Of a stretch of DNA of 42,871 nucleotides, positions 5,494-32,416 are shown one piece after another. Position numbers and translations under genes: made by a program. Numbering within the stretch: the first letter of the stretch is position 1; every line of letters starts with the position of its first letter. The notes beneath the pieces are model-generated. The model searched no databases. It saw only the letters and a program-made list of their open reading frames with translations, and had not been told where the DNA came from. The stretch is from Candidatus Levyibacteriota bacterium (GTDB lineage: Bacteria; Patescibacteriota; Microgenomatia; Levybacterales; GWA1-39-11). The stretch covers positions 1 through 42,871 of the forward strand of contig JAUSNA010000023.1 of assembly GCA_030645455.1 (NCBI GenBank), read 5' to 3'.

Positions 5494-6114
5494 ATTTAAA
5501 GTATTAAGTATTAAGTATCAAGTATCAAGAGGAAAATCAGAGCAATTTTGTTAGGTAGAGAAGGTTTTTTATATGATTTGAATCATTAATGTATACATAT
5601 ATATACCCAATTTTCAGTTCATTAAATAAATTATGTAAAGAAATACTACATGGTATTGACTTGTTTTGATGGGGGTATATACTTATTATGCTCTTAGGTA
5701 GAAGGAAAATGGTTGTGTTTTCCTCTACAAATTCGAAATAGGGCTTGGAGCAGATATTCCGACACCTTGGTGTCGGAACGAGCTCATCCCGTTTAATATT
5801 TCGGGGAATCGCTATTTTCCATTCACTTAGGAGCAAGAATTTATATATATTTATTGCTCTATGGTTCTATTGTTGTATTGTTGAAAAACAATGTAACAAT
5901 TTACAATTCCCTGTTTACTATTCTTACCCGTTTATCAGTTTTATATCCAGCCCCAAATGATAGGTTTTGATCTGCTTATAGCAGGGTAATAAATCCAAAT
6001 CTTTCAAATCCATCATTTTTGGGGTATTATGGTGTATACAAAAGGTGATTACGTGAAAAATGGGGCAATTCGAAGGATTTTTAGCCTCATGGAAACTTAT
6101 AAAATGCTAAGGAA

Positions 6115-6950: not shown

Positions 6951-7073
6951 GCAGGTGGCAGCGAGGATAGGTAATAGTAACTAGTAATTAGGTATTAGGT
7001 TTTTAAAATTAATTTTTTAAATTTTCTATTCACTAATTACTATTCACTGATTCCTAGACCGGCTGCCATCTGC
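6951..7073 (+). repeat. Stem GCAGGTGGCAGC/GCTGCCATCTGC enclosing a stutter inverted repeat (AATAGTAACTAGTAATTAGGTATTAGG ... TTCACTAATTACTATTCACTGATTCC)
   Basis: Outer arms 6951-6962 and 7062-7073 pair over 12 bp including one G-U; the inner imperfect inverted repeat spans about 6966-7056. Confidence 0.7.
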
Positions 7074-11107: not shown

Positions 11108-11225
11108 AGTGGATTGTTTCATTGTTTCGTTGCTGTATTGCTAGATTGCTTCATCTGAAAAATAATATTTTTACTCTTTTCGTAATCGAACAATTGAACA
11201 ATTGGACAATTTAACAATATAATAG
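11108..11225. repeat. Stutter inverted repeat (ATTGTTTCATTGTTTCGTTGCTGTATTG ... CAATTGAACAATTGGACAATTTAACAAT)
   Basis: Arms about 11110-11148 and 11190-11222, imperfectly complementary, between two gene starts. Confidence 0.6.
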
Positions 11226-12782: not shown

Positions 12783-13925
12783 TTATCGGGACTTACTGCG
12801 CTGAATTGCTCTATTGATGTACCATTTGAGTACAAAGCGGATAATAATGAAAAGCACGATTAGGGTAGCAAAAATTAAACCCAGCGCGGTGTAGGGGATG
12901 ACCCAGAAAGTCGTTGTGCCTTCAATAGTGACATCCTTTTGGCCATCATCGTAGACCATAAGAAGCCGGGCAGTGTAGGGACCAATACGAAAGCTTGTGA
13001 GTTTGTTCCAATTGATAGTAAGTTTTGTCACCGGTTTGCCGGCATCATCAAGTTTTTCAGCTCCATTTTCTATTACTTTTTCTTTTACCAAAAAACCTTC
13101 ATTCCAGGAGGATTCAAATTCCCTTTGACCCCCCGGGAGGATGCTGCCAACACCAGGATTTACCTCAAGAATTCCTATTTCATCTCCACCGCTTCGCGTG
13201 ATGAAGATATTTCCTCTGGGTCTTACATGCACATTTCCTTTGTTGGCAAGCTTGACTAAAAAGTCTACCGGAAGGTATTCACTGATGTTATTTTTAGCCT
13301 TAAAACTTACAAGATCTGTCTTTGAATTTGCTCCATCCTTGACCACCGTTAGGAGGGTAACTATAAGAATTTCACCTTTGACTTCCGCACCTGTAGTACT
13401 TATTCCGCTTTCCTGTTTTGGTGCGATACTAAAAACATAGTAGTAACCGTACGCTGCGGTCTCTGGGATATCAATTGTAAAGCTGACATCTTTCCATTCT
13501 CGGGGCTTAGCTTCAAAATCCGGAGTTTCAAATGTAACCCACTTCAATTCTTCCCCTTTTGCCTCGTTCTCGGGCACCGGACTGCCATCAGCCGGATCCG
13601 AAATAAGCCTACGTGCCTTTATTTCAAGCTCGATCGGGGTTGAAAGATTGTTTCTGACTCTGAATTTTTGAGTCACTTTTTCACCGGGTTTTGCGGTCAA
13701 CTCCATAACCGGCGGACTGACTGTTAGGTCAAGCCTGCCAGGCGATTGAGCAAAAGCGCCTCTCAAAGGCAAAATGCAAAAGGCAAAGGTCAAAAGTGCA
13801 AATAAAAATCCAAAAGTTTTTATTGGACTATTTAGTATTTTTGACTTTAAATTCCCGCCTAGACTCGCTGTGGCGTGACGCGAGCGCGGCGAGGCTGGTT
13901 GAATTTTGAATTTTGAATTTTGCAT
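12783..13925 (-). CDS. Paralogous Ig-like (DUF916-like) protein with C-terminal TM anchor
   Basis: LDLTVSPPVMELTAKPGEKVTQKFRVRNNLSTPIELEIK; ESAWxEGFLVKE-like block shared with the next gene; C-terminal TM plus basic tail. Confidence 0.75.
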   Translation of the reverse strand: MQNSKFKIQPASPRSRHATASLGGNLKSKILNSPIKTFGFLFALLTFAFCILPLRGAFAQSPGRLDLTVSPPVMELTAKPGEKVTQKFRVRNNLSTPIELEIKARRLISDPADGSPVPENEAKGEELKWVTFETPDFEAKPREWKDVSFTIDIPETAAYGYYYVFSIAPKQESGISTTGAEVKGEILIVTLLTVVKDGANSKTDLVSFKAKNNISEYLPVDFLVKLANKGNVHVRPRGNIFITRSGGDEIGILEVNPGVGSILPGGQREFESSWNEGFLVKEKVIENGAEKLDDAGKPVTKLTINWNKLTSFRIGPYTARLLMVYDDGQKDVTIEGTTTFWVIPYTALGLIFATLIVLFIIIRFVLKWYINRAIQRSKSR

Positions 13926-13929
13926 TATT

Positions 13930-16229: not shown

Positions 16230-17360
16230 TTAAAAACTCCCGGTTACAAGAATAGTGAGAATATCTGCGTAATCATTTGCTGAAGGTGTGGTATTGGATG
16301 CCTTTGCTTTGAGGGAAAAAGAAACCCTACCTCCAACAATTGGACTGGCACTTGTTTCATATATATAGCGTTTCTCAGTATCCAGCACGCCAACATTGTC
16401 AGAAGATCCATTATATGGAGAGAGGGCTTGAATTGGCCCACCTGATGTTTGGGTTGCGGTGCTACTAATAGCGCCATATCCCTGCGGTTGTGCCGTAAGA
16501 TCGGCTGTTGCCGAGGTTATTGTATGCGATGCTGAGGTGCTTTGTAGCCCGTTATTGGTTCCGCTGATAGAGACAAAGCCTCCGTTGTTGGCGTTTGTAG
16601 AAAAATCTACCCAGACTTTATCGGTTGATGTTGTAACCGATCCGACAGCCAGTTCTCCAAGTCCTAATGTATATGGTGCAGCAGATTCAGAATTGTCTGG
16701 GGCGATATCGATATCAAAGCTGATGGATGAAGTATCTGTTGAAGCAATTGCCGTCGGACTCCATATAAATTGCGTGTAAAATCTTCCCTGACGGGCTGCC
16801 ACTTGCACTGTATAGGTAGTTGAAGGGTAGAGTCCGATGATGTTACTGCCAGACTGCGCCCCCCAAGCAGTATAGGATTGCCAGTCTTCGTCATTTAGAT
16901 CATTTCCGACTGTCATGTCATTTTGTGCATATTGAAAGGTGCCTGATCCGCTGGCAATACGCACGGCATATTGGTAATCGGAAGGATCTGTCCCCCCTCG
17001 GTTGATAACGAGTTTTAATTTGTTGTACCAATTTGATGGGTTGGTAAAAGTGGGTGCGGCTGCAACCGTCGCCTGCATGGTGTATTCAAGACCTGCACCT
17101 ATAAAATAGTTAGCCGACGAGGGACTTCCTTGGTCCACTTGGACGAGAGTTCCAAATAGCGAGTAGTTGGAAGAACTGGAAGTGGCAGTTCCTCCTGCGC
17201 CAAACCCATAATCCATCAATTTATAATTACCGCTTGCAGGTGGGACCGCCTGGGCATAGATTTTCGTATTAAGTATTAAGTAGCACGTATTAAGTATAAG
17301 TACCAATATTGATATAAAAATTAATCTTCTAGGTGCATTTAATAATTTTGATCTCTGCAT
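16230..17360 (-). CDS. Secreted beta-rich surface protein with C-terminal ...NTTPSANDYADILTILVTGSF motif
   Basis: Start chosen at ATG 17360 (MQRSKLLNAPRRLIFISILVLILNTCYLILNTKIYAQA signal peptide) rather than the longer ORF from 17528. Confidence 0.65.
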   Translation of the reverse strand: MQRSKLLNAPRRLIFISILVLILNTCYLILNTKIYAQAVPPASGNYKLMDYGFGAGGTATSSSSNYSLFGTLVQVDQGSPSSANYFIGAGLEYTMQATVAAAPTFTNPSNWYNKLKLVINRGGTDPSDYQYAVRIASGSGTFQYAQNDMTVGNDLNDEDWQSYTAWGAQSGSNIIGLYPSTTYTVQVAARQGRFYTQFIWSPTAIASTDTSSISFDIDIAPDNSESAAPYTLGLGELAVGSVTTSTDKVWVDFSTNANNGGFVSISGTNNGLQSTSASHTITSATADLTAQPQGYGAISSTATQTSGGPIQALSPYNGSSDNVGVLDTEKRYIYETSASPIVGGRVSFSLKAKASNTTPSANDYADILTILVTGSF

Positions 17361-17466
17361 TTTATTGTTATAGATCTTAATAGATTGAAATATTGCTATA
17401 TATTTTGATATAACACTAAATTTTCGAATTAAATCGTAATACTTAATACATAATACGTAATACTTT
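17265..17466. repeat. Stutter inverted repeat (CGTATTAAGTATTAAGTAGCACGTATTAAGTATAAGTA ... CGTAATACTTAATACATAATACGTAATACT)
   Basis: Arms about 17265-17300 and 17436-17466; the first encodes part of a signal peptide, the second abuts the PIN stop codon. Confidence 0.7.
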
Positions 17467-17893: not shown

Positions 17894-18341
17894 AAAATTA
17901 AGCTCTAAATACTAAGTTCTAAATCCTAAACAAGCTCAAAATTCAAATTTTCGATTTTGTAATAATAGAACCAAATATTTTCATAAGTTGAGTAGCTTCA
18001 TTGATAAGGTTAATTCGCATACCTTCGGTGTCTTTATTATTAGAGGTAAGTAGTTTTAGCCAATAAATTGACTCTTTTGTTTCTTTGCGGCAGATTTTGA
18101 TTCTCATATAAAAATCTTTTTTGCTTAAGGCCTCATTAGCTTCAATATAATTAGCTCCAATGGATCCGGAGGATCTTGTTAATTGTTTTACATCTTCCAG
18201 TGAAATAATGGTTTTTTGAATCTGCTTTAAATACATTCTAACATTTTGAGCAAAACTAAAGGTTCTTCCTTCTAGGTCATATATTTTGACGTTTTGTGCT
18301 TGATCCATTGTTTAGTTTTTAGTATTTAGTGCTTATAATTT
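17894..18341. repeat. Inverted repeats flanking a four-helix-bundle ORF (cassette 1)
   Basis: Left arm (17894-17933) aaaattaagctctaaatactaagttctaaatcctaaacaa; right arm (18308-18341) ttgtttagtttttagtatttagtgcttataattt: strong imperfect complementarity. Confidence 0.8.
17943..18308 (-). CDS. Four-helix-bundle protein (S23/23S rRNA-IVP-like, Avd-like fold)
   Basis: RSSGSIGANYIEANEALSKKDFYMRIKICRKETKESIYWLKLL is the S23-family signature. Confidence 0.85.
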   Translation of the reverse strand: MDQAQNVKIYDLEGRTFSFAQNVRMYLKQIQKTIISLEDVKQLTRSSGSIGANYIEANEALSKKDFYMRIKICRKETKESIYWLKLLTSNNKDTEGMRINLINEATQLMKIFGSIITKSKI

Positions 18342-18366
18342 GTCGACTTTTATTCTAAAAGTCGAC
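18342..18366. repeat. Perfect palindrome GTCGACTTTT-ATTCT-AAAAGTCGAC at the 3' end of the HTH gene
   Basis: 10-bp perfect arms with a 5-nt loop; overlaps the HTH stop codon. Confidence 0.85.
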
Positions 18367-18639
18367 TGTTGCAGCTCTTCCTTGCATCTTGAGCAATGGG
18401 TCTGCGCTCGTAAATCTTTTAACTGTAGTATTGGCAGATTTTCTGAATGGATTTGCGGGACTTATGTCTTGCCGGGGGGTAAAATCACGGGAAAATGTCT
18501 GTAGGCTCGATTCTTTGATCCTTATATTTCCTCCAATTTTTACAGCCTTCAAAACCCCCTCTTTTATATAGCGTCGTATCGTGAGAGGGTGTACTTTCAA
18601 AATGAAAGCTGCTTGATTGACGTTAAAAAGATTCTCCAT
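18355..18639 (-). CDS. Excisionase/MerR-like HTH protein, candidate antitoxin/regulator
   Basis: MENLFNVNQAAFILKVHPLTIRRYIKEGVLKAVKIGGNIRIKESSLQTF HTH_17-like; C-terminal tail FTSADPLLKMQGRAATVDF. Confidence 0.8.
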   Translation of the reverse strand: MENLFNVNQAAFILKVHPLTIRRYIKEGVLKAVKIGGNIRIKESSLQTFSRDFTPRQDISPANPFRKSANTTVKRFTSADPLLKMQGRAATVDF

Positions 18640-18649
18640 GATTGCAATT

Positions 18650-18725
18650 TTTAATTTGAAATTTTAAATCAAATCAAAATTATTAAAAATTGAATAAAAA
18701 TTAAAAATTTGTAATTTAAAATTAT
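18650..18725. repeat. A/T-only stutter inverted repeat in the divergent intergenic region
   Basis: TTTTTAATTTGAAATTTTAAATC ... AAAATTAAAAATTTGTAATTTAAAATTAT. Confidence 0.5.
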
Positions 18726-18763
18726 ACTTTTCCAGTTTCTCTCCCTTTTCACAAAAAGTCAAT

Positions 18764-18801
18764 ATGCAATAGTATGCAATAGTATGCAATTTTATGCATA
18801 C
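18764..18801. promoter_or_regulatory. Four ATGCA iterons at exact 10-bp spacing
   Basis: ATGCAATAGT ATGCAATAGT ATGCAATTTT ATGCATAC, starts at 18764, 18774, 18784, 18794. Confidence 0.75.
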
Positions 18802-18869
18802 AGTGAATTTTTTTGACTAGCCTCATTTGAACTGAAAAAATAGATAGACATTATATATTTATACGCGCG

Positions 18870-21800
18870 ATGGCAAAAGAATTAAAAAAAATCTCATCTT
18901 ACCAAAAGCCCCTCTGGCAATACATTTTGAGCCCAAAAAGAGGTTTGTTCATTGCGATCTCTGCTGTTATTTTCACGGTTTTTGCGATGCTAAATATTGA
19001 CCTGAAAGTCAGTGCAGCCACGGGTATCAACCGCACCATCAATTTTCAAGGTAAGGTTGTAAATAGCAACGGGACAAATGTTGCGGATGGGCAATATACT
19101 TTTGTTTTCAAGCTACATGATGCGCCATCCGGAGGAGCAAATCCATGGACGGAAACCCAAAATAATGTTCAGGTGACTGGTGGAGTCTTCCGGGTAAGTC
19201 TTGGTTCTGTTACGACTTTTGCAAGTGCCGGGGTTGATTTTAATACAGATAATTTGTATTTAGGGATTAATTTCAATTCGGATGGGGAAATGACACCGCG
19301 GGTGAGATTTGCTGCGGTGCCATATGCCATAAACGCCGAGAAAGTTGCGGGGCTCACGGTTACCAATACGACCGGAACTTTCACACTCACAGACGGTAAA
19401 ACTTTTTCTGTTAGCAATACCGTTGGCTTTACCGGAACGGATGGGACGACATTTGCCCTTCCGGGTACTTCGGGCACAATTGTGACTCTAGATGCTTCAC
19501 AGTCACTAACGAATAAGACGATAGGTAGTAGCGGGCTTACTTTTTCAGGGGCAACAACGGACATTACAACGGGGACAAATGAAAGTCTTACTATTGCTGC
19601 AGATGGAACAGGAAATGTGCTTGTACAGTCCGGCTCTGGTGGTCAGGCGGCTTTGATTGTTGATAAAACAGGGAGTGGTGATATTTTTGCCGCCTCGTCT
19701 TCAGGAGTTACAAAATTTGTAATAAAATCCGACGGAACAGCTTCCTCTTCCGCTGGTTTTGTCGTTGATGGGGTAGGGAGTTTGCAAAGTACCAATAATC
19801 AAACATTGACCGTAGGTGGAGGGCAGACAGGGGATCTTGTCATTGGAAGAACCTCACAAAGAGTCTACCTCCCCGGTTTTGACACATGCACAGCGCTTGA
19901 AACTTCAGGAGGTATTCTTTCCTGCGGATCAGATAGCACAGGTGGAGGAGACAACTTCTGGCAATACGATTCGACTACCGGGATTGTTGCAAATGGGAAT
20001 CTCACAACTGACTTTCTTCTCGGTGCGACCTCGACTCCATCCGCTAAATTTGCCGTGCTTAATATCGCCGGTACACAAACTCCGGTTGCATCAATTTCGG
20101 CACAAAATGCATCTGCTCAAGCCTTGGTTTTGGGAGGGGATGGTACTATTCAATCTGTCAGAAATAATTCCCTAACTTTGGGTGGCGATACAACGGGAAA
20201 TATTTTTCTAAGACCGCAAAATAATGCCGGACTAGTTACTATCGTTCATGCAGGTATAGGTACTGGGGGATTAAAGCTAACGTCGTCCGAAGCTGATAGC
20301 GTAAATAAAGAAGGAAGAATCAAGATAGGCCATTATCTAAGCTCGGAAGAACCGGTTACCCTCATATTTGGGCAGTCACTCAACACTCAGAACAATATTT
20401 TTATTGGTGGAAATTCAGGTTCGGAGAACGCTGCAACTGAAATAAACTTTCTTACTGCCCTTAATAACACTACAGTTACAGGTACAAGAAGAATGCGAAT
20501 AAACCAGTATGGAGATGTGAGTATTGGTATTCAAGGAGTAGATCCCGACGCAAGACTTCATGTGAAAGGTGGAACAACCGGAGGCAACGCTTCAATGATT
20601 GTTGACCAGATAGGTGACTCTGCCAATGATATTTTTTCTGCTTCTGCCTCTGGTACCACAAAATTTGTCATCAAAAATGATGGAACAGCCAGTAGCAGTG
20701 CTGGTTTTGTCGTTGATGGGGTAGGGAGTTTGCAGAGTACCAATAACCAAACGCTAACAGTAGGTGGCGGATCAACAGGAGATCTTGTCATTGGTCGTGC
20801 ATCTCAAACAGTACAGCTTCCCGGTTTTGCCAATTGTACAGCACTTGAGACCTCAGGTGGAGTTCTTTCCTGCGGAAGCGACGCTTCAGGAATATCTGGT
20901 TATGACAACTTCTGGCAGTACAATTCGACTACCGGGATCGTTGCCAATGGCAACTTGACAACTGACTTTCTTGTCGGTGGGACCTCAACACAATCCGCGA
21001 AGTTTTCCGTTCTTGGAATTGCAGGTACTGATACGCCTGTAGCTTCAGTCAGTGCTATTGGTGGAGCAAATGATACCAAAGGCATTTATATATCAGGTGA
21101 TGGAAGCCTTCAAAGTGTCCGCAATAATACCTTGATCATTGGTGGAAATACAACAGGTGATGTGTCATTCAAACCTGGAAACGTTTCAACTCCAGCATTG
21201 TATCTTTCCTCCTCTGGAAATGTTGGAATTGGAACAACAATTCCAACATCAGCACTTGATGTCGTGGGAAGTCTACTCTTGGGTGCTAACTCTACTATAG
21301 ACACAAGAGCATCAGGATCTCTAAGTATTGGCACCGCAGCAAATACAACAAGCTTAGCACTCGGACGCTCAGGAAATACAACAACTTTTAATTCCACGTC
21401 TTGGACAGCAACACCAACAATTTCAGGACTAATAACAGCAACATCCGGAGTATCAATTGCAACAGGCCAGTCATATACCGGAGCCGGTACCGTTACTCTT
21501 TCCTCTGCCTCTGACAACGACTTGACGCTTACTGCAGCCGGAAGTGGAAATATTATCATCACATCAGATGCAAATACCGGCGTAAGGATTGGCGATAATG
21601 CAGTTGCATCAGCTCTATTTGTAGGTGGGGGCATTGGAGGGAATGCCGGATTTATACTCAATAGAGTTGGTTCAACAGATGATATTCTTGCTGCCTCTGC
21701 CTCGGGTACCACAAAATTTGTCATCAAAAATGATGGAACGGCATCATCTTCTGCTGGTTTTGTCGTTGATGGGGTAGGGAGTTTGCAAAGTACCAATAAT

Positions 21801-24800
21801 CAAACATTAACAGTTGGAGGAGGGTCAACAGGGGAGCTTGTAATAGGAAGAACAAGCCAAGTTGTTTGGCTTCCTGGTTTTGACTGTTCCGGTCAAGGAA
21901 ATGGTGGGAAGCTCACTACAACAAGTGGGGGAGTTCTTACATGTTCTGCAGATACTTCCGGTGGTGGAGGTAACTTCTGGCAGTACGATTCGACTACCGG
22001 GATAATAGCTCCAGGCAATTTAACGGCTGATTTATTGTTTGGTGGTACCTCAACTGCTTCAGCGGGATTTAGAATTACTGGTGCGACGAAAGATTACGGA
22101 ACAGTCGCGGCGGCATCAGTTAGTGCCAACACCTCATTTGCGGGGCTTGTAATTGACAATAAAGGAGTCGGAGATCTTTTTACAGCCTCATCATCCGGTG
22201 TTACTCAGCTGGTGCTTACAAATAATGGCGCGTTGGGAATTGGAACAAATGCGCCTACGGCCAAGTTAGACGTGAATGGTAGTGCCTCAATCTCGGGATT
22301 ACTTGCTTTTAGAACCGGAGCCGGGCAGATACAGACAACGGCCAATAATTCTCTTACTATTGGGGGTGGAACAACGGGCAACATTATATTTCCGAATGCC
22401 GGCGGAATTTTCTTAGGTCAAAATGAGTTGGTTAACGGTCTTATTACTCTATTTTCATCAGGAGTAGGTGAGACTGATCCTTCAATTTATGCTGACGCAA
22501 GCGGGAACCTAATTCTTTCCGCGCCAACAGGGACGGTGCAGATGGGAAATGGAAGCGGAAATATCACAATGTCTTTGACTAATGTCGCTGATCTATTTGC
22601 CGCAGATAAAACAGTGACATTAGCTTCAAATTACTCGGGTACAGACTTTTCATTTAGTAGGGTTTTAACCGGTGGTGCGAATAGTCAGGGAGGCGCGATA
22701 TTTAGCATCACCGACACGTCCGGCGGAAGCGGCACTATTAACCCCGACATGCTTCTTGTTAATGCAGCGCTTACCAGCGGTAATTTTCAGGGAACATTGG
22801 GACGTTTCCAGCAGTCTGGAATTGATAAATTAAGGATTTATGGGAATGGTACTTCTCCTGTTGCAACAATTTCTGCCAATACCTCATTCGCAGGATTAGT
22901 GGCAGATCAGAATGGGTTAGGAGATATATTTACCGCGTCGACAGGTGGAGTTACTAAATTTACTGTCATGAATAGCGGAGAGCTTTATACATCGAATTAT
23001 CGCAATAATGGAGGAATTTTGTATACAAATACAAATGGCATATTGGGACAAACGACCGTTGGTAGTAACAACGAGTGCTTGAAGTCAGTTGGTGGCGGAA
23101 CACCGACTTGGGGGACCTGCGGTGGTGGTGGGGCAGCAGGAACTTGGACGATTGATTCAACTACAGGAATTCATACACCCATAAATAATACTCTTGACCT
23201 TCTTATTGGTGGGACTTCAACGCAGTCCGCGAAGTTTTCCGTTCTTGGAATTGCCGGTACTGATACACCTGTAGCGTCCGTTTCTGCTACTTCGGGAGTG
23301 AATATAGACAAAGGAATTTACCTTTCAGGAGATGGATCTTTGCAGTCAGTCAGAAAGAACAATCTCACAATTGGTGGAAGTACCACGGGCGACATTTATC
23401 TCAGACCCGGCAATAGCCAAGGACTTGTGAAAATCATTCATCAAGATGCTGCCACAAGTGGTCTTTTGGTCACAGATTCTGAGACTCAAAGTACCAATAA
23501 AACAGGAAGGATAAAGTTTGGTTCATACGATGTTACTAATGGGTATGTTACCGGTATGCTTGCTTCCTCTGAAGTAAGCGCCAACCAGCTATTCATAGGA
23601 GGAGGGTCAGCAACAGAAAATGCTGCAACTGTTATTCGGTTCCGAACCGCCCAAAATGTGGGTACGTTGGCCGGTACAGAAAGGATGAGAATTGATAATT
23701 ACGGGTGGGTTGGAGTAGGTGAGATAGGTGATGCGAGCACGGCTTTGCAGTCGCAGTTATACGTAACCGGAGGATCTCAAGGTGCAAATGCGGCACTTAT
23801 CGTCAATCAGACCGGCAGTGCGACTAATGATATTCTGGTAGCATCTGCCTCAGGAACTACAAAATTTGTCATCAAAAATGACGGAACAGCGTCATCTTCT
23901 GCGGGTTTTGTCATTGATGGAGTGGGGTCTTTTCAGTCAACAAAAAATCAAACATTAACAATAGGTGGGGATACAACGGGTAATGTACTTATCAAGCCGG
24001 GAAATACTCAGGGACTTACTTTTTTGTCAAATGGAAGAGTGGGGATAGGTACCTCAAATCCTCTTTCAACTTTGGACGTTAGGGCACAAAATGGAACCGT
24101 TTCCGTAGCCTCAGTATCCGGAGCCACCTCATTTGCAGGACTTGTTGTAGACAACTCAGGCTCCGGAGACATATTCACTGCATCTTCCTCGGGTATGACT
24201 CGTTTTACGATTAGACAAAGTGGACTTGTTCTCATAGGTTCTGCTTCTAATGGTTTGTCATTTGATTATCTTAATGGCCCATCGGCTTCAAATAACGGAA
24301 TATTCTCAGGCACCGCCAGACCTACGAAGTCAATTACGTTATGGCCCGAATACGCCGGTGCTGTCATAACGGCATCGGGTTCAGCGTCAACAACCGGGAG
24401 TATGACCACCGATGCATCGGCATCTGCGCAGCTCAACAGGACATATTATGAATGGATATCAACCTCAACCTCGCTCCAAGATTATGTAGTCGCAATTAGG
24501 ATTACTTTACCTGCAGACTTTTCGGACTGGCCCAGTGGAAGTAATGCTATGACCATAAGTTATAACACCGGTAGCTCTAACACCTCAACAAACGGTCTTG
24601 ATGTCTATATATATAACTCTACTGACGATTCAACAGGACGTCCTGTCTATTTTTCAACTAATAACGTTTCTGCCAAGAGCTGGACAACTCTCAACTTAAC
24701 CCAAGGACAGCTTGACAACGGGGTGTCACCGGATTGGGATAGTGCCGGTGAGTCCGTAACTATTTACTTCAAAATGAAGGCTTCGGGTACGTATAACTAC

Positions 24801-24845
24801 ACTCAAATTGGAGACATCACCTTAAATTACCTATCAAAGTTCTAA
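18870..24845 (+). CDS. Giant (1991 aa) repetitive secreted/surface protein
   Basis: N-terminal TM/signal; RTINFQGKVVNSNGTNVADGQYTFVFKLHD; repeated blocks SASGTTKFVIKNDGTASSSAGFVVDGVGSLQSTNNQTLTVGGGSTGDLVIGR and FWQYDSTTGIVANGNLTTDFL. Confidence 0.9.
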   Translation: MAKELKKISSYQKPLWQYILSPKRGLFIAISAVIFTVFAMLNIDLKVSAATGINRTINFQGKVVNSNGTNVADGQYTFVFKLHDAPSGGANPWTETQNNVQVTGGVFRVSLGSVTTFASAGVDFNTDNLYLGINFNSDGEMTPRVRFAAVPYAINAEKVAGLTVTNTTGTFTLTDGKTFSVSNTVGFTGTDGTTFALPGTSGTIVTLDASQSLTNKTIGSSGLTFSGATTDITTGTNESLTIAADGTGNVLVQSGSGGQAALIVDKTGSGDIFAASSSGVTKFVIKSDGTASSSAGFVVDGVGSLQSTNNQTLTVGGGQTGDLVIGRTSQRVYLPGFDTCTALETSGGILSCGSDSTGGGDNFWQYDSTTGIVANGNLTTDFLLGATSTPSAKFAVLNIAGTQTPVASISAQNASAQALVLGGDGTIQSVRNNSLTLGGDTTGNIFLRPQNNAGLVTIVHAGIGTGGLKLTSSEADSVNKEGRIKIGHYLSSEEPVTLIFGQSLNTQNNIFIGGNSGSENAATEINFLTALNNTTVTGTRRMRINQYGDVSIGIQGVDPDARLHVKGGTTGGNASMIVDQIGDSANDIFSASASGTTKFVIKNDGTASSSAGFVVDGVGSLQSTNNQTLTVGGGSTGDLVIGRASQTVQLPGFANCTALETSGGVLSCGSDASGISGYDNFWQYNSTTGIVANGNLTTDFLVGGTSTQSAKFSVLGIAGTDTPVASVSAIGGANDTKGIYISGDGSLQSVRNNTLIIGGNTTGDVSFKPGNVSTPALYLSSSGNVGIGTTIPTSALDVVGSLLLGANSTIDTRASGSLSIGTAANTTSLALGRSGNTTTFNSTSWTATPTISGLITATSGVSIATGQSYTGAGTVTLSSASDNDLTLTAAGSGNIIITSDANTGVRIGDNAVASALFVGGGIGGNAGFILNRVGSTDDILAASASGTTKFVIKNDGTASSSAGFVVDGVGSLQSTNNQTLTVGGGSTGELVIGRTSQVVWLPGFDCSGQGNGGKLTTTSGGVLTCSADTSGGGGNFWQYDSTTGIIAPGNLTADLLFGGTSTASAGFRITGATKDYGTVAAASVSANTSFAGLVIDNKGVGDLFTASSSGVTQLVLTNNGALGIGTNAPTAKLDVNGSASISGLLAFRTGAGQIQTTANNSLTIGGGTTGNIIFPNAGGIFLGQNELVNGLITLFSSGVGETDPSIYADASGNLILSAPTGTVQMGNGSGNITMSLTNVADLFAADKTVTLASNYSGTDFSFSRVLTGGANSQGGAIFSITDTSGGSGTINPDMLLVNAALTSGNFQGTLGRFQQSGIDKLRIYGNGTSPVATISANTSFAGLVADQNGLGDIFTASTGGVTKFTVMNSGELYTSNYRNNGGILYTNTNGILGQTTVGSNNECLKSVGGGTPTWGTCGGGGAAGTWTIDSTTGIHTPINNTLDLLIGGTSTQSAKFSVLGIAGTDTPVASVSATSGVNIDKGIYLSGDGSLQSVRKNNLTIGGSTTGDIYLRPGNSQGLVKIIHQDAATSGLLVTDSETQSTNKTGRIKFGSYDVTNGYVTGMLASSEVSANQLFIGGGSATENAATVIRFRTAQNVGTLAGTERMRIDNYGWVGVGEIGDASTALQSQLYVTGGSQGANAALIVNQTGSATNDILVASASGTTKFVIKNDGTASSSAGFVIDGVGSFQSTKNQTLTIGGDTTGNVLIKPGNTQGLTFLSNGRVGIGTSNPLSTLDVRAQNGTVSVASVSGATSFAGLVVDNSGSGDIFTASSSGMTRFTIRQSGLVLIGSASNGLSFDYLNGPSASNNGIFSGTARPTKSITLWPEYAGAVITASGSASTTGSMTTDASASAQLNRTYYEWISTSTSLQDYVVAIRITLPADFSDWPSGSNAMTISYNTGSSNTSTNGLDVYIYNSTDDSTGRPVYFSTNNVSAKSWTTLNLTQGQLDNGVSPDWDSAGESVTIYFKMKASGTYNYTQIGDITLNYLSKF
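19676..23990 (+). repeat. At least four long direct-repeat copies within the giant surface gene
   Basis: Copies of 'acaaaatttgtcatcaaaaatgatggaac...tctgctggttttgtcgttgatggggtagggagtttgca' near 19710, 20655, 21712 and 23860; a second repeat 'gcgaagttttccgttcttggaattgc.ggtactgata' at about 20997 and 23230. Confidence 0.9.
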
Positions 24846-24849
24846 AAAA

Positions 24850-27800
24850 ATGATATACACAAATACAAAAAACAGATTTATGCGGATCGTTAGCATTGCG
24901 CTTCTTGCTTCTTTATTGTATTCGAGTTCCCCCTACATAATATCTGCGCAAGAGCCGATACTATCAAATTCAGCCGAAGAACCCTCGCAATACGATAGTC
25001 CCCAAATTGATTACTCTAATTACTCGGCAACAGATGCTGCAATAAATTCCTTGACGCGACCAGAGCAGCAAAGTTCTGCCAGTTTTAAGGAAAGCTCTTT
25101 TATAAGACGGCTGAAAAAGAGGGATTTTCGGGCAAGTGAAAAGGTAAGTGTCGTTGTCGAAAATGCATTTGCAAAGAATATAAGCGTAAAAGTCTTTTAT
25201 GCAGACGGTCAGCAAATACCGGTTGAAGTTGTGGAGGCGAGTGACACCAACCCCGCAATCCTTCAACTTTCACTGCCTTTCAGCGCAAAACCGGGACGAT
25301 ATCGAGTAAAAATTATCGATTCATCAACCGGTCAAGAGTCTATACAGAATTTTACTTGGGGAGTGTTAGCTATTAATCCCAACAAGTCTATCTACTTGCC
25401 TAGTGAGACTGCAAAATTATCTCTTGCAGTACTTGATGAGGTTGGAATGATGGTTTGTGATGCAGATGTTGAGCTTGAAATAACTGACCCTGCCGGCGCA
25501 AAAGAACTTTTAACAACTAAAGATGGTCAAATTAAAGTTAACAACGAGTGTAGTACTAAAGATTTTATAGCTGTTCCCGACTACGAAGCCAACTATCTAA
25601 CAGGTGGGGCCGGAGTTTATCAAATGAATTTGTCAGCCATGACAAAGAACGGTACACATGCAATAACTGACACTTTTGAAGTAAGGGATAACGTTGAATT
25701 TGATGTTGAAAGAATCTCTGCTACCCGTATTTATCCGCCTGTTGACTACCCGATGCAAATTAATATCAATGCTAACCAAGACTTTAGTGGGGTCGTGTCA
25801 GAGGTAGTTCCCTCAGACTTTGAAATAAACCCATTAAAAGGTGCCATTTCCTATGAAAGTGTAGACACCAAACAATTAGGATCATCTACAAAAAGTGTTT
25901 TAGGGGCTCAGGTCTTTAATATAAGATTACCTTTTAAAGAAGATTACCCAATAACTCAAGGTTTTGGTGCTCTAGATCGCGACCCGCTTTTAAAAGAAAA
26001 ATATCAGCAAAATGGGGTTATCGGACACGATGGAGTCGATTTTGATCTGCCAAAGGGGACAACAGTACTAGCTGCCGATTCGGGTGAGATTGTACGTGCG
26101 CGTGAGAATTACGATTACGGAACAACAATTGTTATCCAGCACGATTGGGGAAAGAGTTATTACGGTCATTTAAGTAAATTGTCTGTTAAAGAGGGGCAAA
26201 AAATTGTCAAGGGTGAACCTATTGGGTTATCAGGAGATACAGGATTGTCAACCGCCCCACATCTGCATTTTGGTATAAAACCGAATGTTAACGACCCGGA
26301 TAATGGTTATTTTGGAAAAATAAATCCGCTTCCCTCACTTGGTGTCGATTCAAAGAACGAATCGTATCCGGAGACTGTATCTAGGGACGTTTTAGGTGCG
26401 TCAACTGATGGTTCGTACAAAGTGATTAGTTGGAAGGTCAGTGTTAAAAAAGGTGAAAATATAACCCTTGGTTACACATTCAAAGCCCCACCGGTTAGTC
26501 CTCAGTTCTATCTTTTAGGTCCCCTTGAATTTGAGGAAGAAAGTAGAGTTGTTTTTAAAGAAGCTCGCCAATGGCAAATAGCAGCGGATGTAGTCAATCC
26601 TGATGGGAGGCTTTACTACGGTGATGCAACCAACACCGGTGTTGTTAAATTCCAAACAAATACTTACGACTTTACCTTTAATGGAGAAGTAAGTACTGGG
26701 GTTGCAACAACAGCGAGCCATATCGCATACATAGTTGCAAAAGCCAATCCGGCGGGAGATGAAACGATGATGGGGCATCTAAAGGTGGATGGGAGGCTTG
26801 ATATGATCCGATGCACCGGAGCATGTGATGCCGCAGGGGACTTTGATACAACTAATGACCAGAGTGTAACAAGTAATAACGCAATGTCGTGTGGTACAAC
26901 CGGTACTGATTGTACAAGAACGTTTGACGTTGTTTACGAATCTTTATCAGGCAGAGCGATGATTGTTTATGCTGGGGATACGGCAGACGGGGGAAGTGTG
27001 CCTGACAGCCAAAAGCTTTATTATTGTATTTGGAACGGGACAGCGTGGAGTCCGGTTTCGACCTGTGCTCCAACCAATGGTTCAAACGATATAACTTTGA
27101 CCTCAAATGGTAGGCCAACTTTTGTCACCCTCAAAAGGCAATCTGGCTCTAACCAAATACTTCTGGGAGTCTCAGTTGATGTAGCTGGCACTCATGAAGC
27201 AGAAGCTTTTATTTGGAATGGTAGCTCTTGGGGAAATAGTGTAGTTGCTACCGATACCACAAATCTTACTGCACTGACTCTTGAGGAGGGAAATTCTATT
27301 GACGTAGAGTGGGGAGAAACAAGTGGAGATGCATTTATCATTTATGGAACCGCCGCAACAGTAGAGGTCAAATACAAACGGTTTACTGGGGGAAGTTGGG
27401 GTAGTGAGGCAGATGCATTTGATAGCGCGGCAGCTGGCGGTGATGCAATAGGTATGAATGCAGATAGAGATCCCGAATCTGACAGAATAGCTGTTGTAAC
27501 CAATGATGACAATAATGATCTTTCTGCTGCAGTGTGGAAAGCTGATGGTACAACTGCTGGGTGGACTAGCCTTTCAGCCTCAGTGAACGAAGCAACTCTA
27601 GAAAATATAGCTCTCGGCCCTCCTTATACTGATATTGTTTGGGAAAATAGTGGTTCTCAGGCTATTATAGTTGCTCGAAACGCAGCAAATTCTGATGGGG
27701 CTGAGTATTCAAGAATTTCATGTACAGGTAGCGGGTGTACTGCAACTGGTATAGCCGCAGTAACGAGTGCCTCAGGTGCTGATGATGGGTCATTTGTAAG

Positions 27801-28695
27801 GCTAGTATCTTCCTCAAATAGCGATGACATAATGTTTTTGATAGGAGATACCGACAGAATTCTTACGGCTCAACACTGGAATGGTAGTGCGTGGGAAGCA
27901 GCTGATGCCGGAATTTTAGAGGCGGATGTCTCAGGTGCATCAGGAGGAGATCAGGGTACTTGCGGAGCTACTGTATGTCCAAATAATCTCCCCGCTACCT
28001 TTGTATACATTCCATATTCTCCATGGGGGAGGAATTGGAGATGGACGGATGATCTGACTACAAACGATCCAACTACCTGGCTCGCAAATGAGGATGTTGC
28101 ACCAACAGACTTTAGCCCTAGTGGTGCAACAGTACGTCTGCGCTATAACTTTGCAGAGCTTTCGGGAATGGCAGAGACAAATACAAGAAAAAAGCTTCAA
28201 TTCGTAGACTCGGTAACATGTTCAGACCCGGATAGCTGCGCAAGCTCAAATTGGACTGATGTAGGAGCTCAGGGAAGCGGTGCAGCGTGGAGGTATGCGG
28301 ATTGTGACTCGTCAGATGCGACGCAGGACGACGACGACTCTATAGGTTCGCAAAAGTTAACCGGTTCTACCCAGAATGGTACATTCGTTGAGAACGGCAC
28401 TGCCGCATCGGTTTCTGACCACAATGCCTTGGCGACAATCGAGTACGACTACTGTCTTGAGACAAATGGTGCGACCGGAAGTACTACCTATTATTTCCGA
28501 GCATCCGACTTGGAGCAAGGAACTATATATAGAGATCAAAGATCCGGCTCGGGCGCCAACACTTGTGGTCCTTCCTCCAACCAAGCATGCACCTATCCGA
28601 GCATCCAAACAGGTGTATCCGGTCCGACACTGGGTCAAACAATGAGGCATGGAAAATGGTTCAGCAACGGGGTAGAACAACCATTCACTTTTTAA
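24850..28695 (+). CDS. Giant (1281 aa) secreted protein: Ig-like N-terminal region, M23 (LytM-like) peptidase domain, WNG repeats, conserved-looking C-terminus
   Basis: [50 protein letters not shown]...[43 protein letters not shown]; C-terminus [21 protein letters not shown]. Confidence 0.9.
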   Translation: [1281 protein letters not shown]

Positions 28696-29158
28696 TGACT
28701 AATGATTAATGACTAATGATTGATGATTAAATATGGATAACATACAGAAAAACAAAATAATAACAGTTGAGCAAATTCCCGTATGGATTAAAGCTCATAT
28801 TTTTGTGCTCGCAATTTACAAAATAACAAACACTTTTCCTAAATCGGAGTTATTTGGATTAATTTCACAAATCAGACGTTCTTCAAGCTCCATTCCGGCC
28901 AATATTACAGAAGGTTTTTATAGGAATACGACTAAAGAACTTATTCAGTATCTCTATAATGCACGCGGATCATTAGGTGAGTCCTCATACCACCTCAGGC
29001 TTGCTTTGGATCTGGGTTATATCTCAATTCAGGAATACCAGAATTTTAAGGAAGAAATAGACAATATTGGTAAGCAAATCAACGGGTGGATAAAGAGCCT
29101 GAAAGGAAAGATTAAATGAATTTTTTAATCATGAATCATCAATCATTAATCATTAAAA
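28690..29158. repeat. Inverted repeats flanking a four-helix-bundle ORF (cassette 2)
   Basis: Left (28690-28731) TTTTAATGACTAATGATTAATGACTAATGATTGATGATTAAA; right (29121-29158) TTTTTTAATCATGAATCATCAATCATTAATCATTAAAA. Confidence 0.85.
28733..29119 (+). CDS. Four-helix-bundle protein (S23/IVP-like)
   Basis: FGLISQIRRSSSSIPANITEGFYRNTTKELIQYLYNARGSLGESSYHLRLALDLGYI. Confidence 0.92.
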   Translation: MDNIQKNKIITVEQIPVWIKAHIFVLAIYKITNTFPKSELFGLISQIRRSSSSIPANITEGFYRNTTKELIQYLYNARGSLGESSYHLRLALDLGYISIQEYQNFKEEIDNIGKQINGWIKSLKGKIK

Positions 29159-29176
29159 GAAAGGGGGTGAATATTT

Positions 29177-29257
29177 ATGGCTGCTAAAGCTGTTAAAAAA
29201 GTAAGAAAACAACTAAAGCTTTTCGTGTATTTCTTGTCAGCATCATACGCCAACTAG
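29177..29257 (+). CDS. 26-aa microprotein candidate
   Basis: Strong SD AAAGGGGGTGA then ATG; MAAKAVKKVRKQLKLFVYFLSASYAN*. Confidence 0.45.
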   Translation: MAAKAVKKVRKQLKLFVYFLSASYAN

Positions 29258-29402
29258 TTAGGTTATAGGGGGTAGTGAGTAGTGAGTAGATGGGTTTTTT
29301 GATTCTTCAACTGATAGACCTCAAAAAACAGCCTTTACTACACTGCCACGAATAGCCGATCTTCTGACTACAACCTACAACCTAATACCTACAACCTAGC
29401 CT
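29258..29402. repeat. Stutter inverted repeat without a 4HB ORF, between two tiny ORFs
   Basis: TTAGGTTATAGGGGGTAGTGAGTAGTGAGTAG ... CTGACTACAACCTACAACCTAATACCTACAACCTAGCC. Confidence 0.7.
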
Positions 29403-29561
29403 ATGAAGAACTGCCTGGAAATCGAAGAGATTTTAAAAAAAGTCATCGGAGACGGTGTGGTAGGGTTTTTTGAAAGAAACCTGACCACATCCATACAGGA
29501 GGTAAGGGTATTTACCCCTGTATATGTAAAACAAACCAAGTCGCAAGATTTTGTTAACTAA
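29403..29561 (+). CDS. 52-aa hypothetical protein
   Basis: MKNCLEIEEILKKVIGDGVVGFFERNLTTSIQEVRVFTPVYVKQTKSQDFVN*; plausible composition, below the ORF-track length cutoff. Confidence 0.45.
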   Translation: MKNCLEIEEILKKVIGDGVVGFFERNLTTSIQEVRVFTPVYVKQTKSQDFVN

Positions 29562-29679
29562 TTTTTGACAAGAGGTAGAAAGCCTATTATCCGGTTTAGC
29601 CCCAGTCTCGCGTAGGCGCAAGTCTAGGCGGGCCGGCTTGCTACTTCTTTCAAGGATAGATCGATCCGATACTTAACTA

Positions 29680-29702
29680 ACTCTCCTATATATTAGGAGA
29701 GT
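29680..29702. terminator. Hairpin ACTCTCCTA-TATAT-TAGGAGAGT followed by an A/T-rich tract
   Basis: Perfect 9-bp stem, then ATATATATTTTTG. Confidence 0.65.
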
Positions 29703-29793
29703 ATATATATTTTTGTTCTTTAGCCTCCAAAGGTGGTCGTTTTTTCGTAGTTAAAATATTCCATTTGTGCTACGATAATAGGTAAGCTTGCCT

Positions 29794-31998
29794 ATGAAAA
29801 AGGAAATATTATTGTGTTTTGTTTTTATTCTGATAAGTACCTCGTTAGTAACATTTAGTCCTGTTTTCGCCTCGATTTCGGAATGTACGACTTCTGTAAC
29901 CCCCAATACAATGACACAAAGTTCAACTGACAATTTTTATTTTACCGTCCACAATTCTTCCTCATCCAATGTGAGCTGGATTAAAATTACAAGACCCTCG
30001 GCCCATTTTGACCTCAGCGGAGCTACAGTAAGCGGCTGGAGTGCTTCAACAACAACCAGCGATGTCACTCTGACCGGTGGAACTCTTGCTGCCAACGGGT
30101 CGGTCAACGTAACAGTAAGTGCTTCGTCCGGAAGTACAGAGGTAACGGGTGTAAATTGGACGGTTCAAGCCTCAGATGACAGTGGGGGGGCGAGTCCGAC
30201 AACATGCACGGGAGGTCTGGAGGCTGAAATTGCGGGGGAGCCATCTGATAATACCGCACCCACCATTTCAAGCGTAACGATTTCTGACATTTCGGATACA
30301 TCGGTAAAAATTTCATGGACAACTGATGAGAGCTCAGATGCTGAGATTTTCTATAGCGCTGATCAGTCATTTGATCTTTATTCTCAAGATACGACTTTAA
30401 GCACTTCTCACAGTATTACGCTGAGTAGTCTTACAGCAAATACTACCTATAATTTTAGGGTCAACAGTACTGATGCGGCTGGAAATACGGGACAATCGTC
30501 CGACAGTATATTTACAACTGCCAAAACAGGATCAACAAGTACAACCGTTACCGTGACCGTCACAACGACAAAAACCATCACTCCAACCCCAACCCCCACT
30601 CCAATTCCTGACAAAACAGCTCCGACAATTATTGTCAGTACGGATTTTTCAAAACCATTTAATAAGGCTCCAAAGATAAGCGGTCGTGCAACTGATGGCA
30701 AAGGTATCTCAAAAGTGGAATACACTATTGATAATGGGGTTAATTGGCAGCCGGTTGACAATGCCAATCTTGGAAAGGCAACGGTTAGCTTCGATTTTAC
30801 ACCTTCATATCTTGATGATGACACATACAAAATTAAAGTAAGGGCCGTGGATAGCTCCGGCAATGTTGGAGTAAGTGGTGTGAGCCTGCTTACCATTGAC
30901 AGGCTTCCTCCAAATGTTGGTAGTACATTTTTCTCTATTGGTCCACAACCACTGCGTCCATTAAATGATGGTAGGATTTATGGCCTAGAAGGAATGGATC
31001 AAAAAATTACTCTTTCTGCTGTTGGTGGGCCTATTAGTATAGATGTTACATCTAGCCCGCTTCGACCTAGCGTTAGCGAGGCGAGCAATAAAATGTTCTC
31101 ACTCGTTAAAAATATTGATAATGGACTGTGGTCCGGGATATTGAGTTTTGACACTCCGGGTGAATATGAATTAATTGCAAAATCAATCGATGGGGCGGGG
31201 GCAAAGACAGAGAGAAATTTAGGAACTATAGTAATTTTGCCACGGGGCAAAATACTTACAAAGGACAGCTCAAATATTAATGCATCAGTTAGTGTATTTT
31301 ACTTCGACCGCATAACTAAGCAGTTTGTTCTTTGGGATGGAAAGGCGTACGGTCAGATGAATCCGCAGATAACTAAATCGGATGGAAATTATAGTCTCTA
31401 TCTTCCAGCAGGAAAATATTATATTGAGGTAAAAGCGCCTGGATATAGAAATCTTAAGACTGATATTTTTGAAATTGAGAACAGCTTGCCGGTTACGGCT
31501 AGCTTCAGGCTTGAGAAGCGTTTTGCTTTTTTTGATATTACTCAAACATCAGCAGTAGTTGACGTTTCTAAAGTTTACGCGAGTAAAGAAAACCGGAGTT
31601 TTCTTATTGGACAACAGTTGCCGGACATAGAACTTTCTGATGCTGACAAAATTGTACAGACATCTTCATTAAGAGGAAAGCGTTTGCTTGTTTCGATATT
31701 GAATAGTTGGAATCCGCAGACTTTTGCGCAAATATCTATTCTAAATGGTGTTGCAAAGAAAGGCGAAATAAATATTGTGGCTTTATTTCCTCAAGAAACT
31801 GCTTCTCGTATTAACATATTAAGAAAAAGAGGGGAGTATTCTTTCCCGATGTTGGCAGATCAAGACGGGTTACTCATAGAGCCTTTAAATATCCTTCATC
31901 TGCCCATGAACTTATATATAAGTAGGAACGGAACTATTGAGAGAATTAATTACGGAATTTTAGGTGAAGAAGAAATAGAAAGAAATCTGCTTGATTAG
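29794..31998 (+). CDS. Secreted multidomain protein: FN3-like and Ig-like domains, carboxypeptidase-regulatory-like domain, C-terminal thioredoxin/TlpA-like domain lacking CxxC
   Basis: DNTAPTISSVTISDISDTSVKISWTTDESSDAEIFY (FN3); T/P linker; GNYSLYLPAGKYYIEVKAPGY; FLIGQQLPDIELSD...LLVSILNSWNPQTFAQI...FPMLADQDGLL...LHLPMNLYISRNGTIERINYG. Confidence 0.8.
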   Translation: MKKEILLCFVFILISTSLVTFSPVFASISECTTSVTPNTMTQSSTDNFYFTVHNSSSSNVSWIKITRPSAHFDLSGATVSGWSASTTTSDVTLTGGTLAANGSVNVTVSASSGSTEVTGVNWTVQASDDSGGASPTTCTGGLEAEIAGEPSDNTAPTISSVTISDISDTSVKISWTTDESSDAEIFYSADQSFDLYSQDTTLSTSHSITLSSLTANTTYNFRVNSTDAAGNTGQSSDSIFTTAKTGSTSTTVTVTVTTTKTITPTPTPTPIPDKTAPTIIVSTDFSKPFNKAPKISGRATDGKGISKVEYTIDNGVNWQPVDNANLGKATVSFDFTPSYLDDDTYKIKVRAVDSSGNVGVSGVSLLTIDRLPPNVGSTFFSIGPQPLRPLNDGRIYGLEGMDQKITLSAVGGPISIDVTSSPLRPSVSEASNKMFSLVKNIDNGLWSGILSFDTPGEYELIAKSIDGAGAKTERNLGTIVILPRGKILTKDSSNINASVSVFYFDRITKQFVLWDGKAYGQMNPQITKSDGNYSLYLPAGKYYIEVKAPGYRNLKTDIFEIENSLPVTASFRLEKRFAFFDITQTSAVVDVSKVYASKENRSFLIGQQLPDIELSDADKIVQTSSLRGKRLLVSILNSWNPQTFAQISILNGVAKKGEINIVALFPQETASRINILRKRGEYSFPMLADQDGLLIEPLNILHLPMNLYISRNGTIERINYGILGEEEIERNLLD

Positions 31999-32416
31999 GT
32001 TTTGGTGAGTAGGTTGTAGAATTATCAAAAATATGAATTCATATAAAGAATTAACCGTTTGGCAAAAATCAGTAGAACTTTGTGTTTCCGGTTATAAGAT
32101 TACAGAAGAATGGCCAAAAGCCGAACAATTTGGGTTAACTTTTCAGGTAAGAAAATGTTTCGTGAGTATTCCTTCAAATATTGCAGAAGGTCAAAGAAGA
32201 GGACATAAAGCGGAATACATACAATTCATAAGGATAGCATACGGTTCCGGGGCAGAATTGGAAACTCAATTACTTGTTGCGTTAAAAGTTGGTTACTTGA
32301 GTAAAAAAGTGTACGATGAATTGGATGGGCTTTTAGAAGAAGTCATGAAAATGCTGAATCGACTTTTGTCTGTTTTACAGAATACTACTGACTACAACCT
32401 AAAACCTAAAACCTAA
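31995..32416. repeat. Inverted repeats flanking a four-helix-bundle ORF (cassette 3)
   Basis: Left (31995-32019) TTAGGTTTTGGTGAGTAGGTTGTAG; right (32391-32416) ACTACAACCTAAAACCTAAAACCTAA. Confidence 0.8.
32033..32416 (+). CDS. Four-helix-bundle protein (S23/IVP-like)
   Basis: FGLTFQVRKCFVSIPSNIAEGQRRGHKAEYIQFIRIAYGSGAELETQLLVALKVGYL. Confidence 0.93.
   Translation: MNSYKELTVWQKSVELCVSGYKITEEWPKAEQFGLTFQVRKCFVSIPSNIAEGQRRGHKAEYIQFIRIAYGSGAELETQLLVALKVGYLSKKVYDELDGLLEEVMKMLNRLLSVLQNTTDYNLKPKT

Follow-up and report, generated by a model that had tools for sequence, protein, structure and literature searches.

The function and mobility of the S23/IVP genes carried by intervening sequences (IVSs) of ribosomal RNA (rRNA) have remained open for more than 25 years. 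In Coxiella, tandem GACAGAT heptamers, which vary among strains, lie directly 5' of the S23p start codon, the IVS is excised by RNase III, and the S23p structure solved from Xanthomonas campestris is a homopentameric toroid (PMC4990558). A second puzzle, with no accepted cause in the cited literature, is the excess of 7-nt repeats in the genomes of some bacteria, which has been described for Calothrix, Nostoc, Beggiatoaceae and Xanthomonas, the last being also the source of the S23p structure (PMC4692102, PMC4679880); degenerate heptanucleotide hairpins are likewise found in P6b of the Nostoc tRNA-Leu intron (PMC3488679). The two puzzles are joined by the elements described herein, which were found in a 42,871-nt stretch of DNA (the window) from a Candidatus Levyibacteriota bacterium, corresponding to contig C54 of the draft genome G000 (1.2 Mb, 88% complete, 82 contigs; hereafter G denotes a genome and L a locus). 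In this window, three four-helix-bundle (4HB) genes of the S23/IVP type are each enclosed by arrays of tandem heptamers, and the resulting cassettes are inserted DNA that probably belongs to a small mobile-element family, with the three ORFs as its coding members.

An initial annotation of the window had placed the three open reading frames (ORFs) in one S23/IVP family, which was confirmed by a profile search in which all of them passed the cut-offs of both PF05635 and TIGR02436; a fourth copy, truncated, is harbored by contig C32, making four in the genome. The same annotation had bracketed each ORF with inverted repeats built from degenerate tandem words, whose coordinates and words proved correct, and it can now be added that the words of these arms repeat in tandem every 7 nt. 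Cassette 1 lies on the minus strand and encodes a protein of 121 aa (17943-18308; 44.6 bits to PF05635 and 61.8 bits to TIGR02436), with a left (5') arm of TTTAGTA-type heptamers at 18311-18335 (minus strand, lag-7 self-alignment score 12) that reads CTAAATACTAAAAACTAAAC on the ORF strand, and a right (3') arm at 17905-17930 (minus strand, lag-7 score 11), where the array is inverted and contributes to the terminal stem of the fold (inverted-repeat p~0.005 for the two arms). The left arm of cassette 2, composed of TAATGAC/TAATGAT heptamers (28693-28728, plus strand, lag-7 score 21), starts within the TAA stop codon of the upstream gene and is followed by an ORF of 128 aa (28733-29119, plus strand; PF05635 126 bits) and by a right arm of AATCATT heptamers inverse to the left one (29127-29156, plus strand, lag-7 score 19, fold z -2.7), which stops immediately 5' of the Shine-Dalgarno sequence of the next gene; the inverted-repeat score of this cassette is 26 against a null of 9.9. 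Directly 3' of cassette 2, a very short gene preceded by a strong Shine-Dalgarno sequence is present at 29160-29255, and it occupies the same place in G023 and G149 (L252/L251 equivalents). Cassette 3 begins within the upstream TAG stop with a TAGGTTT-type left arm, TTAGGTTTTGGTGAGTAGGTTGTAG (31995-32020, plus strand), which pairs in the fold with the right arm, CTACAACCTAAAACCTAAAACCTAA (32384-32416, plus strand, lag-7 score 18); its ORF of 127 aa (32033-32416, plus strand) matches PF05635 with 124 bits and the PDB homologue 2gsc with E=5.6e-20. As had been noticed from the letters alone, the left arms of both plus-strand cassettes start in the upstream stop codon, while the final codons of the ORF in cassette 3 are formed by its right arm and the next gene starts at 32418.

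Flank complementarity was significant straight away for cassettes 1 and 2, while that of cassette 3 (p 0.25 at first) became significant only when the right flank was extended into the ORF; a terminal stem was present in the RNA folds of all three, with z from -2.0 to -2.7. The cassettes therefore share with IVSs the complementary ends that form a stem, and differ from them in residing between protein genes rather than in an rRNA helix. The transposase ORF looked for as a mark of classical insertion sequences (ISs) and miniature inverted-repeat transposable elements is lacking, the 4HB gene being the sole ORF of the element and the profile matches of the window ORFs including no transposase domain.

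This anatomy is not confined to the window. The comparison covered the family (38 copies in 8 genomes), the class (137 genomes, 104 of which hold at least one 4HB copy) and named distant genomes. Inverted-complementary flanks were detected at p<=0.05 in 89 of 104 intact 4HB copies (73 at p<=0.01), compared with only 5 of 112 control ORFs from the same loci, and the complementarity is element-specific, the own right arm ranking at a median of 1% among all right arms. Direct arrays take the place of inverted ones in a few copies (L057, L068, L094, L111), and 8 of the 104 have neither kind at p<=0.05. A period of 7 fits most arms best, with 8 in a minority and sometimes 9. Generally, the element measures about 0.4-0.5 kb and consists of one 4HB gene and two arrays, usually inverted, and the same arrangement recurs beyond the class in Bacteroidota, Clostridia, WOR-3, Planctomycetota and Cyanobacteria; a phage collection that was also searched gave no match. 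The placement is equally regular: the upstream neighbour is co-directional with the 4HB gene in 87 of 102 cases, and the left array starts at a median of -1 nt from the upstream stop codon, within 10 nt in 44 of the 67 measurable copies. The initial observation is thus real, and wider than first reported.

That the cassettes were inserted follows from the existence of empty sites, which were found for cassette 2, on Nostoc plasmids and between two sister species. In G149, a member of the same taxonomic order, the gene orthologous to that upstream of cassette 2 ends with HGEWFSNGIRQPFTF and its stop, and 9 nt later come the Shine-Dalgarno sequence AAAGGAGGTGAAT and the start codon of a small gene; cassette 2 of the window is placed exactly between the matching stop and the Shine-Dalgarno/start, while the site is occupied in G023 by a copy with a different word. 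In Nostoc sp. ATCC 53789, plasmids pNsp_a and pNsp_c bear operons of 91-98.6% identity that differ in which of two junctions holds a cassette, so that each plasmid supplies the empty site of the other, and both junctions are also empty on further Nostoc plasmids. Site A reads GGTTCTAG-GTT-ATG when empty and GGTTCTA-AATCAGGAGTCAG..4HB..CTTCTGGATTCTAG-TTATG when filled; site B reads GAGGTAATGGGATTTG when empty and GAGGTAATG-TTAGGGGAAAAGGG..4HB..GAATTATG-GGATTTG when filled. G044 and G059 are sister species of one genus with eight and zero 4HB copies, respectively, and three sites filled in G044 are empty in G059, including one within helix 6 of 16S rRNA. Two classic IVS-like copies were located in this helix (L014 and L135), which is interrupted at L135 and continuous in G059. 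At the empty sites, gene and arms are missing together, and both neighbour genes are undamaged wherever this was examined. For cassette 3, the search for an empty site was precluded by its downstream gene, which has no ortholog in close relatives. Together with the relatives in 16S helix 6, these sites substantiate the earlier proposal of IVS-like mobile cassettes between protein genes. Neither of the two observations that the initial annotation had named as refuting it was made, as complementarity in the flanks is higher than in controls and sites without the gene do occur. At L171, an arm pair lacking an ORF has even landed within a 4HB ORF. In addition, the same junction of the same two genes has been struck by 4HB lineages that are only 19-20% identical (L017/L087 versus L030).

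The initial annotation had further suggested, from the different words and the conserved geometry, that structure rather than sequence is selected, and this part of it was not supported. The fraction of pairs that share a word increases with protein identity, from 3-6% below 40% identity to 11% at 40-50%, 36% at 50-60%, 51% at 60-70% and 95% at 70-90% (Mantel 0/2000), the polarity of the word relative to the ORF is kept among sharing copies, and array periods of 8 and 9 recur inside 4HB protein clades. Where measurable, the ratio of nonsynonymous to synonymous substitution (dN/dS) in 4HB pairs is 0.05-0.18, which indicates that the protein is under purifying selection. Because synonymous sites are mostly saturated in pairs above 60% identity while the word is still shared, the word appears to be constrained beyond the neutral expectation.

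These results bear on the best surviving alternative, according to which the arms exist only to make a stem that RNase III can cleave, the stem being selected and the word incidental. The terminal stems in the folds, the copies in 16S helix 6 and the established excision by RNase III of the IVSs of Coxiella, Salmonella and Leptospira (PMC4990558) are in its favor, as is a slight excess of G-U pairs when counted per element (46 vs 28, p=0.047). However, the two arms show hardly any complementarity in the order of their unit variants, since permuting it lowered the complementarity only from 17.3 to 16.1; the overall G-U asymmetry is weak (164 vs 133, p=0.08); some copies carry direct arrays; single unpaired arrays are common, an inverted partner lying nearby for only 61 of 222 arrays genome-wide; and the word is kept with the protein lineage. 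We consider this alternative unlikely and conclude, from sequence comparison, that the main conserved feature is the word rather than exact pairing, though the arms can pair.

Slightly less credible is the alternative that the element is moved in trans by a reverse transcriptase (RT) of the diversity-generating retroelement (DGR) or group II intron type, or by a Y1 transposase of the kind associated with repetitive extragenic palindromic (REP) sequences (RAYT), with the 4HB protein as an Avd-like accessory. The homology of the 4HB protein to DGR Avd, seen in bAvd profile matches (PMC10053308), and the correlation of 4HB with Y1 counts (rho 0.43) are consistent with it. Against this, G000 with its four 4HB copies gave no match to PF00078 (RT) or PF01797 (Y1), which in a genome 88% complete is no proof of absence; an RT match was obtained in only 24 of the 137 genomes and was lacking in 37 of the 51 that have at least four 4HB copies, so that RT genes are not frequent enough to be a requirement; and the two inspected Y1 genes are flanked by their own palindromes rather than by heptamers. 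As a required partner, RT or Y1 was accordingly rejected by co-occurrence across genomes. The two inspected Y1 genes, located in G059 (L117 ~10941) and G044 (L137 ~1364), show REP palindromes (TTGACAAGGACGGACCTTGTCAA) on their flanks, which represent a repeat system separate from the heptamer arrays. In G050, a 0.9-Mb genome of the candidate phyla radiation, several contigs carry about ten Y1 copies of identical score and length, a recent IS200-like burst.

Heptamer arrays are also found where no 4HB ORF is present. The window contains 17 lag-7 arrays (score >=11) against 0.3 per shuffle, which are degenerate, dispersed and mostly intergenic like the short tandemly repeated repetitive (STRR) sequences of cyanobacteria. 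Among them are facing pairs that enclose no ORF: one at 29259-29289 and 29368-29398 with the word of cassette 3 (lag-7 scores 14 and 16), one at 17266-17297 and 17430-17463 with the word GTATTAA (scores 13 and 17), and one of the form TAGGTAATAGTAACTAG.../...CTATTCACTAATTACTATT at 6967-7048 (score 21); a further pair, at 11113-11150 and 11184-11222, has a period of 8 (lag-8 scores 16 and 21). A single AAGTATT array lies at 5499-5529 (lag-7 score 22), and other heptamer arrays at 13765-13802 and 13899-13926 (scores 17 and 19). Across 14 genomes of the one class, and uncorrected for phylogeny, the number of heptamer arrays away from 4HB genes tracks 4HB copy number (rho 0.80, p=5e-4), which periods 5, 6, 8 and 9 do not, and in 100-kb samples four of five 4HB-less genomes had no heptamer arrays. 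The pattern suggests, without proving it, an action of the 4HB protein in trans on the arrays. G044 also has composite arrays of up to 400 bp (L137:7493-7897, L140:2275-2690 and others like them), along which one heptamer word gives way to another and which have long blocks in common from locus to locus; their appearance is that of nested insertions.

A 7-nt polymerase footprint was reportedly offered by Mrazek in 2007 as the cause of heptamer repeats. That the arrays arose by replication slippage on such a footprint, with the 4HB genes merely sitting in repeat-prone gaps, is very improbable: array copy number does vary, sequence does drift and heptamer repeats are over-represented in some bacteria (PMC4679880, PMC4692102), but the 4HB-less genomes of the class mostly lack heptamer arrays while other periods are unchanged, the word is common to both arms and to the 4HB lineage, gene and arms are absent together at empty sites, and arrays of period 8 or 9 reappear within 4HB clades.

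The explanation that we favor, and judge likely, is that the three ORFs are coding members of a small mobile-element family that lacks a recognisable transposase and whose 4HB protein recognises its own word and acts on the arrays in trans. The protein, a pentamer in solved relatives, would recognise its word and help arrays to insert or expand, both in cis and in trans; since neither RT nor Y1 was found in G000, the help might come from host repair, replication or RNA-processing enzymes, or from an unrecognised activity of the 4HB protein itself. After transcription, the arms would pair in a long, imperfect hairpin and offer RNase III a possible cleavage site like that of known IVSs, which together with placement at stop codons would make insertion nearly harmless. 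The classic rRNA IVSs would then be the ribosomal members of the element family, and the cyanobacterial STRR heptamers are probably its ORF-less debris, given their shared form and the co-occurrence on Nostoc plasmids. A direct prediction is that a 4HB protein should have affinity for its own heptamer word, and that heptamer arrays should be rare in genomes that never held a 4HB gene.

The best solved match of the 4HB protein is 2gsc (XCC0516), which, like the homologue 2rld, has five chains in its PDB entry. In an alignment of 116 diverse 4HB proteins, E52 and E75 (cassette 3 numbering) are invariant in 100%, and Q38, N49, S45 and an R are nearly so. Such residues would be unexpected for a mere scaffold, and the two glutamates hint at an uncharacterised active site.

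Several points weigh against this explanation. To our knowledge, no catalytic domain that could account for the insertion activity has been recognised in 4HB proteins. Most empty sites are between species or between paralogous plasmid operons, and transposition itself has not been observed. The target duplications, which are imperfect repeats of about 5 bp located where stop and start overlap at three sites (L164, L157, L136), are imprecise, and none is visible at L171, where an ORF-less arm pair is inserted within a 4HB ORF. G059 has arrays in the absence of 4HB genes, which are read here as relics since it is the sister of a 4HB-rich species, and the array correlation is the one uncorrected for phylogeny. 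Moreover, the Coxiella S23p is seemingly not expressed and decaying (PMC4990558).

A broader proposal can be offered only tentatively, namely that 4HB proteins are the specificity, perhaps catalytic, part of a widespread class of mobile elements that lack a recognisable transposase, in which IVSs, intergenic 4HB genes and the STRR-like repeats of various bacterial phyla are one phenomenon. In this view, the protein would read a word specific to its lineage and build heptamer arrays, or spread them, throughout the genome. If true, many intergenic 4HB genes that have been assigned to clustered regularly interspaced short palindromic repeat (CRISPR) or other loci by neighbourhood would belong to it. 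On the cyanobacterial plasmids at L162, L156 and L161, 4HB cassettes are located between cas10 and cmr3 and between cas6 and cas4. They are probably simply inserts, a warning against deducing function from neighbourhood, and the reported CRISPR association of 4HB genes may be a side effect of cassettes inserting into operons. At L112:540-1450, a 4HB cassette lies in the loop of a group-I-intron-like insert within the 16S rRNA gene, the match of which to RF00028 is weak (18 bits, under the gathering score). The loop of a group I intron is a frequent place of homing endonucleases.

Apart from the Coxiella repeats, no published account of 4HB genes with heptamer arrays was found in a search that was light on subscription journals. 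Among known systems, DGR Avd shares the homologous pentameric 4HB fold, the oligomer of the window proteins being inferred from homologues; in contrast, the co-occurrence data make RT dispensable here, and the NCBIfam Avd cut-off was missed (53.4 and 34.0 vs 80 bits). REP/REPIN sequences with RAYT resemble the present family in combining short dispersed hairpins with a gene to which a trans-acting role is ascribed, whereas REP is a fixed palindrome served by a Y1 nuclease, which has no match in G000, and the present family is constructed of heptad arrays, a lineage-specific word and a 4HB protein. The STRR and other cyanobacterial heptamers, together with those of Xanthomonas, Nostoc and Beggiatoaceae, are likewise degenerate 7-nt arrays, dispersed, intergenic, strain-specific and often arranged as inverted hairpin pairs; while the cited accounts name no causal protein for them, here the arrays bracket 4HB genes, including those on the Nostoc plasmids, and scale with their copy number. 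Finally, the 23S rRNA IVSs with an S23p/IVP ORF of Coxiella and Leptospira are alike in protein family, size (about 430 nt) and complementary ends, whereas the window family resides mostly between protein genes at stop codons, with some relatives in 16S helix 6, and bears arrays on both sides, a lineage-linked word, many copies per genome and ORF-less array relatives.

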